From positions 1 to 40,604 of the forward strand of contig PAQK01000001.1 of assembly GCA_002709665.1 (NCBI GenBank): a stretch of 40,604 nucleotides of DNA. Direction: 5' to 3'. Source of the stretch: Gemmatimonadota bacterium. GTDB lineage: Bacteria; Latescibacterota; UBA2968; GCA-2709665. Below, in pieces: positions 13,418 through 18,722 of the stretch (position 1 is the first letter of the stretch; each line of letters begins with the position of its first letter). The notes beneath the pieces were generated by a model. The model was not told where the DNA came from, searched no databases, and saw nothing but the letters and a program-made list of their open reading frames with translations. The translations under genes and the position numbers were made by a program.

Positions 13418-15640
13418 ATGGCTGAGAGGCCGGTTGCGGCATATCCAGGTAACTACACACCTGGCGATTTAGATATCCGGCTGGAGATGAAGTTCACGGA
13501 TCTGGAAGGGAATGTCAGGAAATCGCCGTGTCTCGAGGTGGTGACAGGTGACGCAGGAACCTGGGAATTGAGATTTGAGAATCATCACGCGGATCTTGGA
13601 CCAGGAGCGATCATCACCCTTGTGCGATTCAACTATCAGATCGCATCGGATATGCCCTCGGATCATCCCGGGAAGCGGGATCATTGCTTGCTTGAGAAGA
13701 AGACCCTAGCGGAGCTCGAGCTCGTTACCTGGAAGGATTCGGTAAATCTGCTGAGTGTAATCGTTACCTCAGGGCAATTCAGAAAAGGTGAAAGTTTCAC
13801 CGTGATGGTGGGAGAACGTACAGGAGGAAGTGTCGGGTCAGAGGTGTTCTGGTCTGCTACAAATGGGACCTTCTTGATCGCGTTAGATACAACAGGAACG
13901 GGTGCGTTTGTGGGTGTATCTGGAAATCCATTTGAGTTCGAAGCGGTCGCGCACCACCAGGTGGAGTTGCTGCGACTGCTGGGACCATCTGTTGCGAAGA
14001 CCGGAGAGACGTTTCGTCTTCACCTTGGTATTTACGATCGAAACCGGAACATCATAGAGACCTACACAGGGCAAGTCGATTTCGATATTCCCGAGGGACT
14101 CTATGGACTCCCCTCTTCCTATCAGTTCCGGTCCGAGGATAAAGGCCTGAAGATATTTGATCATGTTGCAGCACAGGGATCCGGAGTCTATCGAATCGGC
14201 GTTTCTGAAGCGACATCGAGCGAGACATTCCGTTCCAACCCTACCCTTGTTTCAGATTCCCCCGATGCATATGTATACTGGGGCGATGTGCATGCCCACG
14301 GATGGGGTGACTCGACAATGCACTTGATGCACGCCCGAACGAAGAAACTCGATCCTGTTTCCCGTCATAAACAGGGACGGGATATTGGACGGTATGACTT
14401 CGCCTGTCCCGCCTCAATGTCCATGGATCCCGATAAACGGGAGGAAATCTGGGAGCCATATCGTGAGGCTTGCGAGAATATGGATGAACCGGGTCGATAC
14501 ATCCCCTTCCTGGCCTACGAGGCACATCCGAAAGCTGGAGATCGCCAGGTCATTTTCAAGGAGTACAAAACAGAACCCATCCCACCCAAAATGCGGACCG
14601 ATATGGAGGAAGTCGACCAGGTATTCGGCAAAAGAGACGATGTATTGCTGCAAGTGCACATTGGTGGAAACACTCCCCGCTGGGATCTATACCAACCCGA
14701 AAGAGAGCGCTTTCTGGAAGTCTGCTCAGGATTCGGTTGCGCAGAATGGCTGTTGCAGAAGGGCCTTCAACTGGGCTATCGGCCGGCGGTCTGTGGGGCA
14801 TCTGACCTGCACCTTGGACTTATGGGTGGCCCAAGAGCAGTAGAAACCTTCAGAGGTCGATTTGGCCCCAAATACCCAATGAAACAACGCGATTGGGCAT
14901 ACGGCACCGGGCCGGTAACGGCAATCATCGCTCCTGAGTTGACCCGAGACAGCCTCTGGCAGAGCATCGAAGACAGAAACACCTATGCCACTAGTGGATC
15001 TCGAATCTTGCTCAAGGTCACCGGCAATGGACTGTACGCCGGATCGGACCTCCTCCTCAAAGACAAGCTGGAAATCTCGATCCGTTGTCACGCATGCGAG
15101 GAAATTGAAACTATTGAGCTCATCATCGGAGAGCATACAGCGGCCTCTTGGCATCCCAACTCACCGGACTTCGTCGAAAATGTCCGTATGGATGCCGATC
15201 AGGTTCCAGGTGAATGGGCTTATGTGAGAGTATCCCAGACGGACGGTGAGTATGCCTGGTCCACACCACTCTACATCCAGCGGGACACCCCCCTGCCATC
15301 TACAAACCTCCCAGCCTGGAATGATCAGGAATCCCTGCAACTCGACGCGATGGCTCAGAATGATGCCACACCATATCTGTCAGCCCTTGTCGCGTATCTG
15401 AAACTTGAAGAAGACCCCGATCGGTTCAGGAGTATCACACCTGTGGGTGTTCTGAAACTCAGTATGGGAACCTGTGCACTTTTCTACTGTCACTGGTCTG
15501 ACGAGAAGCTGCCGATGTCCATCCGTTGGTTTTTCGAGTTCGACATCCCCAAGATCAGATACGACCTGGGGTGGCGAGACTACGGCGCATACGACGAAAA
15601 TGACCTGGGTCCAAGAATGATGGCCAAATACAAGGCATGA
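13418..15640 (+). CDS. DUF3604 family protein (PHP-like metallohydrolase fold)
   Basis: A 740-residue protein. The N-terminal 280 residues are beta-rich with no recognisable motif. The C-terminal half carries the DUF3604 pattern: VYWGDVHAHG (metal D and HxH), ERFLEVCSGFG, CGASDLHLG, and APELTRDSLWQSIEDRNTYATSGSRI. DUF3604 is related to PHP-type phosphoesterases, but its reaction is unknown. ATG 13418 follows AGGAG. No signal peptide is present. It follows the ceramidase-like gene by about 110 bases in which I see nothing distinctive, and the DegT-type aminotransferase gene follows closely. It is common in glycan-degradation neighbourhoods of uncultured bacteria, so a role in substrate trimming is plausible but not shown. 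Confidence 0.82.
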   Translation: MAERPVAAYPGNYTPGDLDIRLEMKFTDLEGNVRKSPCLEVVTGDAGTWELRFENHHADLGPGAIITLVRFNYQIASDMPSDHPGKRDHCLLEKKTLAELELVTWKDSVNLLSVIVTSGQFRKGESFTVMVGERTGGSVGSEVFWSATNGTFLIALDTTGTGAFVGVSGNPFEFEAVAHHQVELLRLLGPSVAKTGETFRLHLGIYDRNRNIIETYTGQVDFDIPEGLYGLPSSYQFRSEDKGLKIFDHVAAQGSGVYRIGVSEATSSETFRSNPTLVSDSPDAYVYWGDVHAHGWGDSTMHLMHARTKKLDPVSRHKQGRDIGRYDFACPASMSMDPDKREEIWEPYREACENMDEPGRYIPFLAYEAHPKAGDRQVIFKEYKTEPIPPKMRTDMEEVDQVFGKRDDVLLQVHIGGNTPRWDLYQPERERFLEVCSGFGCAEWLLQKGLQLGYRPAVCGASDLHLGLMGGPRAVETFRGRFGPKYPMKQRDWAYGTGPVTAIIAPELTRDSLWQSIEDRNTYATSGSRILLKVTGNGLYAGSDLLLKDKLEISIRCHACEEIETIELIIGEHTAASWHPNSPDFVENVRMDADQVPGEWAYVRVSQTDGEYAWSTPLYIQRDTPLPSTNLPAWNDQESLQLDAMAQNDATPYLSALVAYLKLEEDPDRFRSITPVGVLKLSMGTCALFYCHWSDEKLPMSIRWFFEFDIPKIRYDLGWRDYGAYDENDLGPRMMAKYKA

Positions 15641-15678: not shown

Positions 15679-16911
15679 ATGCTCGCAATCGACGGCGGGG
15701 AGAAACTTAGAAAGACACCCTTTCCAAAGCGCCATCTCCTGGGTGAAACCGAAAAGGCAGCAGTAGAACGCCTGTTCGATCAGGCCATCGACTCTGGAAA
15801 CGCGATCGGGTACGGTGGACCTGAAGAACAGGCATATGAAAGGGAATTCGCTGCGTATATGGGTGGTGGTTTCGCCGACCTGGTCAATTCCGGGACTTGT
15901 GCCATATTCGCTGCTCTGGGCGCACTCGAACTGAAGGTAGCGGGAGAAGTCATTGTTCCCTCCATCTCCGATTACGGCGGTGTGATGCCTGCCGCATTGC
16001 TGAACCAGATTCCAATTCCTGCGGACACAATGCCGGAGTCGTTCAACGTGGGACCCAACCAGATCGAAGCGGTACTTAGTCCCCATACACGAGCCATTGT
16101 AGTTGCCCACATTTCCGGCGAACCGGCGGACATGGACCCCATACTCGAAATCGCAAACTCGCGCAATATCCCGGTTATCGAAGATTGCGCACAGGCGCAC
16201 GGTGCGACCTACAAAGATCGTCTTGTCGGAACAATGGGTACTGCGGGGGCATTTTCCACCATGAGCGGGAAGCATCATGCTACTGCGGCTCAGGGCGGCG
16301 TCGTCTTTACCAAGGACGAGAACCTGTACTGGCGAATCAAGAGATTCTCTGATCGAGGAAAACCATTCAATCTTGACGCCACGAGCAATCCAAGAGCAGG
16401 CCTCAACCTGAACGGCACTGACCTCTCAGCTGCAGTCGGACGGGTTCAACTCAAGAAGCTTCCGGAAATTACACGGCGGCGGCAGCAAGCAGCTAATATC
16501 ATCCTCGACGGCATCAGAGACCTGGTCTCTGTATCCGCCAAGGAGATGTCCAAAGGAACAGATTCGGCTTATTGGTTTATGCCAATCCAGGTGGACAGCA
16601 CGAAGCTCACGGTCGACAAAGACGCATTTGCGAAGGCCCTGGCGGCAGAGGGCATCCCATTATCCGTCTACTACGGTCGTGTAGTACCTCATTCGATATG
16701 GTTTCAGGAACGAAAAGTTTTTGGGACCAGTGACTATCCCTGGGGATTGCCTGACTATGAAGGAGATCGGGAAGCTGAGTTTCCCTGCCCGAATGCCGTG
16801 GAGGCGAGAAACATTATGTTCGTGATCAGGTTACACGAGCAGTGGGGGGAACGGGAAGCGCGGGACACGATTGAAGCGATGAGGAAGGTTGAGGAGCATT
16901 ACAGGAAGTAA
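15679..16911 (+). CDS. DegT/DnrJ/EryC1/StrS-family PLP-dependent aminotransferase
   Basis: PLP enzyme of the sugar aminotransferase family. The Schiff-base lysine is K198 in FSTMSGKHHATAAQGG, and the cofactor-binding D169 and Q172 are in IEDCAQAHGA. Length (410 aa) and the N-terminal NSGTCAIFAAL phosphate-binding block are normal. Family members add or remove an amino group on keto sugars, or act as dehydrases. Some relatives handle inositols, for example amino-scyllo-inositol. ATG 15679 is preceded by GAGG. The context is catabolic with no nucleotide-sugar genes nearby, so it could work in degradation of an amino sugar or amino cyclitol. That is inference. Confidence 0.9.
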   Translation: MLAIDGGEKLRKTPFPKRHLLGETEKAAVERLFDQAIDSGNAIGYGGPEEQAYEREFAAYMGGGFADLVNSGTCAIFAALGALELKVAGEVIVPSISDYGGVMPAALLNQIPIPADTMPESFNVGPNQIEAVLSPHTRAIVVAHISGEPADMDPILEIANSRNIPVIEDCAQAHGATYKDRLVGTMGTAGAFSTMSGKHHATAAQGGVVFTKDENLYWRIKRFSDRGKPFNLDATSNPRAGLNLNGTDLSAAVGRVQLKKLPEITRRRQQAANIILDGIRDLVSVSAKEMSKGTDSAYWFMPIQVDSTKLTVDKDAFAKALAAEGIPLSVYYGRVVPHSIWFQERKVFGTSDYPWGLPDYEGDREAEFPCPNAVEARNIMFVIRLHEQWGEREARDTIEAMRKVEEHYRK

Positions 16912-17200: not shown

Positions 17201-17953
17201 ATGGAGTGGATTGATGTGAATTGTAGGGGTGGGAGTGCTAGAGATCACGCGGCGGGTACGCCCACGGTTGCACAGCTGCTCGAGGAGATGGATCGGCTGC
17301 AGATCAGTGAGGCATGTGTGCATTCACCCTGGTCCGAGGTAATGGCGGCCGATCATGCGAATGAGCAGTTATTTGAAGATTTGGTGCCGCACGATAGGCT
17401 TCACGCGATTCCGGAAGTGCTTCCAGAGGGTGGGCAGCATTTCATCGACAAGCAGGCTGATGCTATCGAAGACCTGATCTCCAAGGGTGCGATAGCGGCA
17501 GTTGCCAGGTTGAGCAAGAACAAATTCCCTTTAACACCGTGGTGCGCCGGAGCGATGCTCGAGGCGATGCAGGCTGCGAGGTTCCCTCTGACTGTATTCT
17601 ATCCTGAAATCGATCCGAACCATCTCAACGAAACACTCGAAGCATTTCCAGAACTGCCGATTCTGCTGCAAGAAATACCACGGACAGGATACAACCGGAT
17701 CGTCTATGCACTGATGGCCAAACACAAGAACCTGCGCCTCGTGTGTGATCCGCCTCAATTTGTACTTGCCGGCATTGAATATCTGGTGAATCGATTGGGT
17801 CCGGACCAATTGCTCTGGGGAACACGATACCCGATTTCTGAGGGCGGGTCGGCGATTGCAGGGATTATGTACGCTGATGTTTCCGATGCAGCGAAAGAGG
17901 CGATAGCGAATGGAAATATCAAACGTCTTATGGAGGAGGTGCGACGTGGCTGA
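17201..17953 (+). CDS. Amidohydrolase-2-like protein lacking metal ligands (probable pseudoenzyme)
   Basis: A 250-residue protein with the overall pattern of an amidohydrolase-2 TIM barrel: an N-terminal IDVN strand, and near the C-terminus the LLWGTRYP segment that corresponds to the usual FGSDYP. The metal-binding HxH of motif I is replaced (DVNCRGG), the middle His motifs are not visible, and the catalytic Asp of GSD is Arg. It therefore probably lacks hydrolase activity. It starts at ATG 17201 with GGAGG upstream. Its last eight bases overlap the following gene, which is a complete member of the same superfamily, so a paired or heteromeric role is likely (inference). Confidence 0.75.
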   Translation: MEWIDVNCRGGSARDHAAGTPTVAQLLEEMDRLQISEACVHSPWSEVMAADHANEQLFEDLVPHDRLHAIPEVLPEGGQHFIDKQADAIEDLISKGAIAAVARLSKNKFPLTPWCAGAMLEAMQAARFPLTVFYPEIDPNHLNETLEAFPELPILLQEIPRTGYNRIVYALMAKHKNLRLVCDPPQFVLAGIEYLVNRLGPDQLLWGTRYPISEGGSAIAGIMYADVSDAAKEAIANGNIKRLMEEVRRG

Positions 17954-18722
17954 TCGGTACCTGCAGGCTGGATGGGAAGGTAAGCCCGTCGATTTCCACT
18001 TTGTGATGGACACGCATGCCCACCTCGGGATGAATGTGGACTTTGTAGTGATGGACGGATCTGTGGAAGGCATGTTACGCTGCAAGGACAAGATGGGAAT
18101 CGACCTTACGGCGATTAGCTCCATTCCCGGCACCATTGGTGGGTGGACCAAGGGCAATGACGAGGTGATCGAGGCTGTTCAGAAATATCCCAAAAGGTTT
18201 CTGGGCTATGTCACGGTCAACGCACACGATCCAGACTCGGTGGTACCAGAATGTGAACGATGCTGGGATGCGGGCTTCAAAGCCCTCAAACTCCATACTG
18301 GTCAGAAACTGAACTACGATCATCCCAATATTCAGCCGGCACTCGAATTTGCGAATGACAAGGGGTGTCCGATCCTCTGCCACGTCTGGGGTCGAGAATT
18401 GGATCATATGGAGCCGCTGATTGAAAAGTACAGTAAAAGCATCTGGCTCCTGGCACACGCTGGGTGTGCGGATAAAGAGAAATACGTGAAGGTCGCGCAG
18501 AACCACGAGAATGCCGTTCTTGAGACATGCTATTCAAGGTGCCCAAAGGGATTGCTCGAGTACTTTGTCGACGAAGGATTGGAAGACAAGTCCCTATGGG
18601 GCTCGGATGCGGATTTTTATGCATCCACCCATCAGTTTGGGAGAGTGTTGTTCGCAGAATTAAGTGAGGAGATCAAGAAGAAGATGCTTTGTGACAATGC
18701 CAGGCGGGTGTTCGGGGTTTAG
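17946..18722 (+). CDS. Amidohydrolase-2 family metal-dependent hydrolase
   Basis: A 258-residue TIM-barrel hydrolase or decarboxylase of the amidohydrolase-2 family. All expected ligands are visible: MDTHAHLG (HxH), KLHTG, LCHVWG, LLAHAG and LWGSDADFY, which contains the catalytic Asp. It starts at GTG 17946 with AGGAGG about six bases upstream. It overlaps the previous gene by eight bases, which indicates translational coupling to its degenerate partner. The family hydrolyses lactones or decarboxylates aromatic acids; lactonase activity would suit a sugar-acid pathway, but that is only inference. Confidence 0.88.
   Translation: MADRYLQAGWEGKPVDFHFVMDTHAHLGMNVDFVVMDGSVEGMLRCKDKMGIDLTAISSIPGTIGGWTKGNDEVIEAVQKYPKRFLGYVTVNAHDPDSVVPECERCWDAGFKALKLHTGQKLNYDHPNIQPALEFANDKGCPILCHVWGRELDHMEPLIEKYSKSIWLLAHAGCADKEKYVKVAQNHENAVLETCYSRCPKGLLEYFVDEGLEDKSLWGSDADFYASTHQFGRVLFAELSEEIKKKMLCDNARRVFGV

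Follow-up and report, generated by a model that had tools for sequence, protein, structure and literature searches.

Two described systems are among the closest to the gene pair reported here. In 2-amino-3-carboxymuconate-6-semialdehyde decarboxylase (ACMSD), a homodimer with one zinc and with both subunits active, Arg239 of the adjacent subunit completes the active site (PMC11650718). The aspartate transcarbamoylase of Pseudomonas includes a pseudo-dihydroorotase of the amidohydrolase fold, which lacks catalytic residues and is needed for the activity of its partner (PMC7053772). In that system the partner is a transcarbamoylase, a protein of another fold, whereas the partner of the dead subunit considered below is its own paralogue from PF04909 and is often fused to it. 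A dead amidohydrolase-fold subunit is already known from Pseudomonas, and what appears to be new here is a dead partner paralogous to a live PF04909 enzyme. No published account of an enzyme-pseudoenzyme pair in PF04909 was found in the literature searched, most subscription journals lying outside it; PMC4207490 proved unrelated.

The window, i.e., the whole stretch of 40,604 nucleotides that was analyzed, contains two consecutive genes of this family, A and B (Table 1). Both proteins exceed the gathering score of PF04909 (Amidohydro_2, 26.4 bits), and neither of them matched an NCBIfam model. The ligand set of the two-metal amidohydrolases (HxH, Lys, His, His, and Asp) is complete in B (His24, His26, Lys115, His146, His171, and Asp221) and wholly absent from A, where the corresponding residues are Asn7, Arg9, Phe133 (β-5 His), Glu158 (β-6 His), and Arg209, together with, for the Lys, either Ala102 or Arg103 according to which alignment is used. 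The distribution of the ligands of B, with HxH on strand 1, Lys on strand 4, His on strands 5 and 6, and Asp on strand 8, is the pattern of two-metal amidohydrolases with a bridging carboxylated lysine. A sequence-only reading of this DNA had reported that A lacks HxH and the catalytic Asp, that B has every ligand, and that the two genes overlap by eight bases with a ribosome-binding site inside A. All of these observations hold, with Asn7-Cys-Arg9 found in place of HxH and WGTRYP in place of WGSDxP. Its wording "fused by overlap" does not apply to the window, where A and B overlap as separate genes, many of their relatives being fused.

The GTG codon is the likely, not the proven, start of B, because an in-frame ATG at 17910 is another possible start, which would give a protein of 270 aa and an overlap of 44 bases with A. 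The N-terminal extension of B includes one position, Trp258 of the tandem chain, that is the same in all ten rows of the alignment with natural fusions. Direct comparison of A with B by BLASTP gave hardly any match (E 1e-4 over 53 residues). Their family profiles align over the full length (hhalign probability 99.9, E 1e-33), which makes the two proteins paralogues.

Table 1. Features of the A-B locus in the window.
Feature	Position	Strand	Basis
DegT/DnrJ/EryC1-type PLP aminotransferase, upstream of A	15679..16911	+	profile match
Gene A, degenerate amidohydrolase-like barrel (putative pseudoenzyme), 250 aa	17201..17953	+	PF04909 39.7 bits; 0/6 ligands; eight strands in AlphaFold2 model
Codons Asn7-Cys8-Arg9 of A replacing His-x-His	17219..17227	+	sequence and alignment
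Codon Arg209 of A (WGTRYP) replacing catalytic Asp	17825..17827	+	sequence and alignment
AGGAGG ribosome-binding site for gene B, within gene A	17934..17939	+	read directly; GTG six bases on
A/B overlap, eight bases	17946..17953	+	ORF coordinates
Gene B, intact amidohydrolase, 258 aa, GTG start	17946..18722	+	PF04909 73.1 bits; 6/6 ligands (HxH, Lys, His, His, Asp)
N-terminal extension of B, collinear with linker in natural A-B fusions	17946..18011	+	alignment

The window pair aligns with the natural fusions from end to end, the N-terminal extension of B matching their linker. An AlphaFold2 model of one such fusion (L112:3995-5542, 516 aa, 10 sequences) has a mean pLDDT of 87.7 and a pTM of 0.87. 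Predicted as one chain of 506 residues, the window pair has a mean pLDDT of 79.4 and a pTM of 0.77; each half shows eight strands, and pLDDT falls below 50 only at residues 12-18, 78-80, and the junction 248-262. For chains of two domains, these pTM values imply that the mutual placement of the barrels is predicted with fair confidence. The structure prediction of the heterodimer that had been suggested as a check thus returned, for single-chain models, two complete barrels in a fairly confident mutual placement. The natural fusions and the predicted packing both favor a physical contact between A and B.

Among known structures, CAC3332 (PDB 3cjp, Z 26.0, profile E 3.8e-22) and BB4693 (PDB 3irs, Z 24.0) match the intact half best, by structure and by profile. 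These differ from the present pair in being uncharacterized amidohydrolases solved as single-barrel chains, and we know of no degenerate partner for either. ACMSD, whose Pfam family we take to be PF04909, shares the fold (2hbv and 4ifk, Z about 22; Z 22.4 for the B half of the window chain against 2hbv) and gives a weak, partial sequence match to B (E 3.6e-7 over 113 residues). Both subunits of ACMSD are active, whereas the window pair has one dead member and a live B with an extra Lys. For the window's A, the top structural match is the dihydroxybenzoate decarboxylase 6m53 (Z 23.2 over 243 residues), and for the A half of a fusion it is the γ-resorcylate decarboxylase 2dvt (Z 23.3). Both decarboxylases are active metal enzymes, whereas A has none of the ligands.

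The retrieved stretches were merged into 114 contig pieces, almost all belonging to a single phylum, and the six ligand columns were read for each of their 222 domains. The loci had been included because they resembled A or B, or because they were PF04909 matches in the window's genome, so the counts give the arrangement of A-like and B-like genes and not their frequency. Ligand loss is bimodal: 94 of the 222 domains have all six ligands and 78 have none, with few intermediates. An intact domain is present on the same strand within 400 bases for 90 of the 98 degenerate domains, being adjacent downstream (39), fused downstream (28), adjacent upstream (18), fused upstream (1), or overlapping (4), and 29 of the 98 share one polypeptide with an intact domain. 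Conserved adjacency of both forms, which had been proposed as a check, is therefore found in other genomes, and chance adjacency of A and B is rejected on these counts. The reciprocal count gave a degenerate partner within 400 bases for 92 of 106 intact domains. Three of the remaining 14, which have no visible partner, are truncated by contig ends, and two (C19:51031 and C33:61599 in the window's genome) show none within 1.5 kb of flank at either end, so a B-like enzyme may in some cases work by itself. The eight degenerate domains that are partnerless at 400 bases comprise four at contig ends, two of them resembling HHR-type fragments, one with an intact domain about 730 bases away (G043:C79), and three from the window's genome (C49, C70, and C35:28979) that fall outside the main degenerate branch. 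Solitary HHR-type members, which have Arg at the Lys column, have no partners within 400 bases. The window's genome alone yields 51 PF04909 matches, including several adjacent pairs and two pairs within single ORFs (529 and 546 codons). The P0001 search found relatives in 31 of 41 genomes, the window's own included (E up to 1e-3). Across the phylum, 41 of 64 genomes gave relatives (E up to 1e-8). Many of the top matches lie in ORFs of 520-630 codons.

At E up to 1e-30, the A profile (alignment A1) also matched 44 of the 121 genomes in the phylum of an Armatimonadota genome; in the family of a Paenibacillus genome, 9 of 104 genomes matched. From the Armatimonadota search 28 new loci were retained, of which 24 have an immediate intact partner, three have it one gene away, and one is at a contig end; all 10 loci from the Paenibacillus family are paired, 8 of them by fusion. 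Homologues of A that occur alone had been named as evidence against a functional pair. Three relatives that seemed to live alone (L205, L215, and L219) proved, on wider stretches, to have an intact B on the same strand, separated by a single gene, which is GH42-like in one locus and an Eco57I-type methylase in two, and a further stretch (L214) stops at a contig end. The Eco57I-type DNA methylase genes (PF07669, TaqI_C) between the degenerate and intact genes belong to two Armatimonadota genomes (L244:2195-4441, minus strand, and L245:7516-9825, plus strand) and overlap one or both of the amidohydrolase genes.

A total of 131 pairs, those of the Armatimonadota and Paenibacillus relatives among them, was obtained with a partner limit of 3,500 bases, as against the 400 bases used for the 98 degenerate and 106 intact domains above; this count omits L185-L204 and has the wider stretches L243-L246 in place of L205, L214, L215, and L219. 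The order degenerate-intact is found in 67 split and 43 fused pairs, and the order intact-degenerate in 20 split pairs and one fusion. The sole reverse-order fusion found (L176, G044:C287, 2517-4061) encodes 515 aa with the intact half first. On a tree of 57 pairs out of 123, from which the C18 pair had been dropped, at least four changes between fused and split are needed, at least two of them required by well-supported branches, along with three changes of gene order.

In a tree of 99 domains built with the ligand columns removed, 42 of the 46 degenerate rows, plus two odd rows, form one branch (SH-aLRT 99). A tree of 91 rows that includes the other phyla requires two changes of the degenerate label, compared with 30 when labels are shuffled, and places the window's A within an all-degenerate set of 33 (SH-aLRT 98). 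The intact rows make up one side of a branch with weak support (SH-aLRT 86 for 33 rows of the 99-domain tree and 51 for all 34 rows of the 91-row tree). From these trees, A and B would go back to an early gene duplication. Distances among A domains correlate with those among B domains (r 0.71, with none of 2000 permutations as high) in 58 non-redundant pairs, thinned from 124 pairs with both halves longer than 190 residues. Measurement of selection on the degenerate gene, another of the checks suggested, indicated purifying selection in relatives (dN/dS 0.16 and 0.11). By the Nei-Gojobori method, split pairs (21 comparisons of 7 pairs from one genus) have an average dN/dS of 0.159 in A and 0.124 in B, and fusions (10 comparisons of 5 fusions) one of 0.105 and 0.098, respectively. 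The window's A is divergent, with at most 32% identity in the distance comparison, and the dN/dS values are those of its homologues. A has the barrel fold in the model, has lost the catalytic residues, and is under selection, the last as read from relatives, as is usual for a pseudoenzyme. A pseudoenzyme would also lack activity of its own and act through a partner, and the natural fusions support such a partner role.

Other loci of the window's genome contain related arrangements. One degenerate-intact pair (L094, G000:C18, 3220-4691), whose dead half retains two His, falls outside the main branch and, on its sequence, may be an independent origin of the arrangement. At L092 (G000:C35, 12202-13771) both members are altered: one reads QFREVN, and the second keeps Lys, His, and His, has Asn for Asp, and has no aligned HxH. 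Two loci of the same assembly, L095 (G000:C15) and L013 (G000:C36), carry look-alike runs of amidohydrolases with intact and degenerate members, a likeness that suggests duplication or strain mixture (contamination estimate 8.77%).

The surroundings of the pair in the window form a carbohydrate-catabolism island with sulfatase, GH123, ThuA, CBM9, and enolase-type genes, as well as DUF3604, DegT aminotransferase, heparinase-like, and GH127 genes. Among 20 neighbors picked from 8 regions around other pairs were Gfo/Idh/MocA oxidoreductases, xylose-isomerase-like barrels, transporter subunits, creatininase, aconitase X, and aminotransferases. A DegT-type aminotransferase is located within 2 kb, always on the same strand, for 25 of the 131 pairs compared with none of 33 solitary domains, 7 of which have short flanks. 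Being found beside only these 25 pairs, it was rejected as an obligate partner. The gene upstream of the aminotransferase in the window encodes a DUF3604/CehA-McbA-like protein (740 aa, 13418-15640), only part of which is covered by the models. DUF3604 relatives were detected at none of 243 loci (phmmer, E 1e-10, mostly with 1.5 kb of flank), so there is no sign that this neighbor belongs to the A-B unit. Judged by the neighbors, B is probably a metal hydrolase that acts on a sugar-derived amide or lactone in carbohydrate catabolism.

We consider it probable that A and B are two subunits of one heteromeric enzyme, in which A is an obligate non-catalytic partner, likeliest one that completes the active site of B. 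Rather than a decaying gene, A is probably a functional component of this two-part enzyme, because the same couple recurs, often fused, across many bacteria. The loss of all ligands and the divergence of the window's copy are what one would expect of a decaying duplicate of B retained by chance or hitch-hiking, yet such an origin of the pattern is highly improbable given dN/dS values of 0.1 to 0.16 in relatives, the co-divergence with B, the single old degenerate branch, and the repeated fusions; at the level of the family, dN/dS, co-divergence, and recurrent fusions reject a pseudogene. All six ligand columns in B are at or above the 97th percentile of conservation. In A, 33 of 43 rows have Asn in place of the first His (97th percentile) and 33 of 43 have Arg in place of the Lys (88th percentile), whereas columns H2, H3, H4, and D range from the 28th to the 41st percentile, below the median column of A, and differ from subfamily to subfamily. 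Poor conservation at these four columns, with Asn and Arg retained, points to a metal site that was abandoned while two positions at the mouth of the barrel were kept. The Lys-column Arg of most A domains is also present in solitary HHR-type relatives and therefore may be ancestral, not new; besides it, no A-distinguishing Arg reached at least 70% over the degenerate rows. In the window's A, the residues Cys8, Glu158, Cys182, and Asp183 would, by alignment, sit near the old ligand positions, where an alternative metal site might be sought; such a site had been named as a second finding that would count against the sequence-only reading, and neither of its two refuting findings turned up as far as the analysis reached. 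Arg166, considered as a possible counterpart of the bridging Arg239 of ACMSD, lies a few residues past the old strand-6 ligand and is nearly invariant among 15 aligned rows; no cross-interface residue was found.

Some PF04909 relatives are said to function without metal. A could accordingly be a metal-independent enzyme, e.g., an isomerase or lyase, that works in sequence with B as a bifunctional two-step enzyme with channelling. Strong purifying selection, the retained Asn and Arg, and fusion, which is typical for sequential enzymes as well, agree with such a role, but the four other former ligand columns are poorly conserved and vary by subfamily, and the window's A deviates at an A-defining column, with Asp183 where most A domains carry Ser. 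We regard this role as quite unlikely, and the variable former ligand columns disfavor a single metal-free active site common to all A domains. It is also unlikely that A is a regulatory subunit whose old active site serves as a sensor of a pathway metabolite and so controls B allosterically: the Asn and Arg at the barrel mouth could grip a carboxylate, and the dead dihydroorotase required for partner activity is a precedent (PMC7053772), but the pocket columns differ among subfamilies and the sequence carries no hint of a regulated response. The sequence-only reading had proposed a catalytic subunit with a regulatory or structural pseudoenzyme. Its general form is supported by adjacency, selection, and the predicted barrels, and completion of the active site is added here beside the regulatory and structural roles.

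The heteromeric enzyme proposed above would most simply be a heterodimer of two TIM barrels, and our best reading of the pair is an old, undescribed A-B heterodimer that acts in carbohydrate catabolism. After duplication of the ancestral gene, one copy would have lost its metal site and been retained as A, the obligate non-catalytic partner, taking the position of one of the two subunits in an ancestral symmetric dimer. B, which has the metal site, would do the chemistry, probably amide or lactone hydrolysis, and gene overlap or fusion would allow A and B to be produced together. The likeliest mechanism is that A shapes or completes the active site of B across the interface, as Arg239 does in ACMSD.

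For the family as a whole, we tentatively suggest, as a possibility somewhat short of an even chance, an ancient and widespread group of two-barrel proteins in which one barrel bears the metal and the other is a permanent pseudo-subunit completing the active site of its partner, and which has been repeatedly fused and rearranged, in both orders, in Latescibacterota, Armatimonadota, and Paenibacillus relatives. Annotation pipelines can be expected to label both A and B "amidohydrolase" and thus to count two enzymes, while a recognizable half of such "amidohydrolase" genes here would be non-catalytic partners. In screens, B expressed alone could fail without A. With more than 100 natural pairs, split and fused and in both orders, the family would be a good system for the question of how a symmetric homodimer becomes an obligate enzyme-pseudoenzyme heterodimer.
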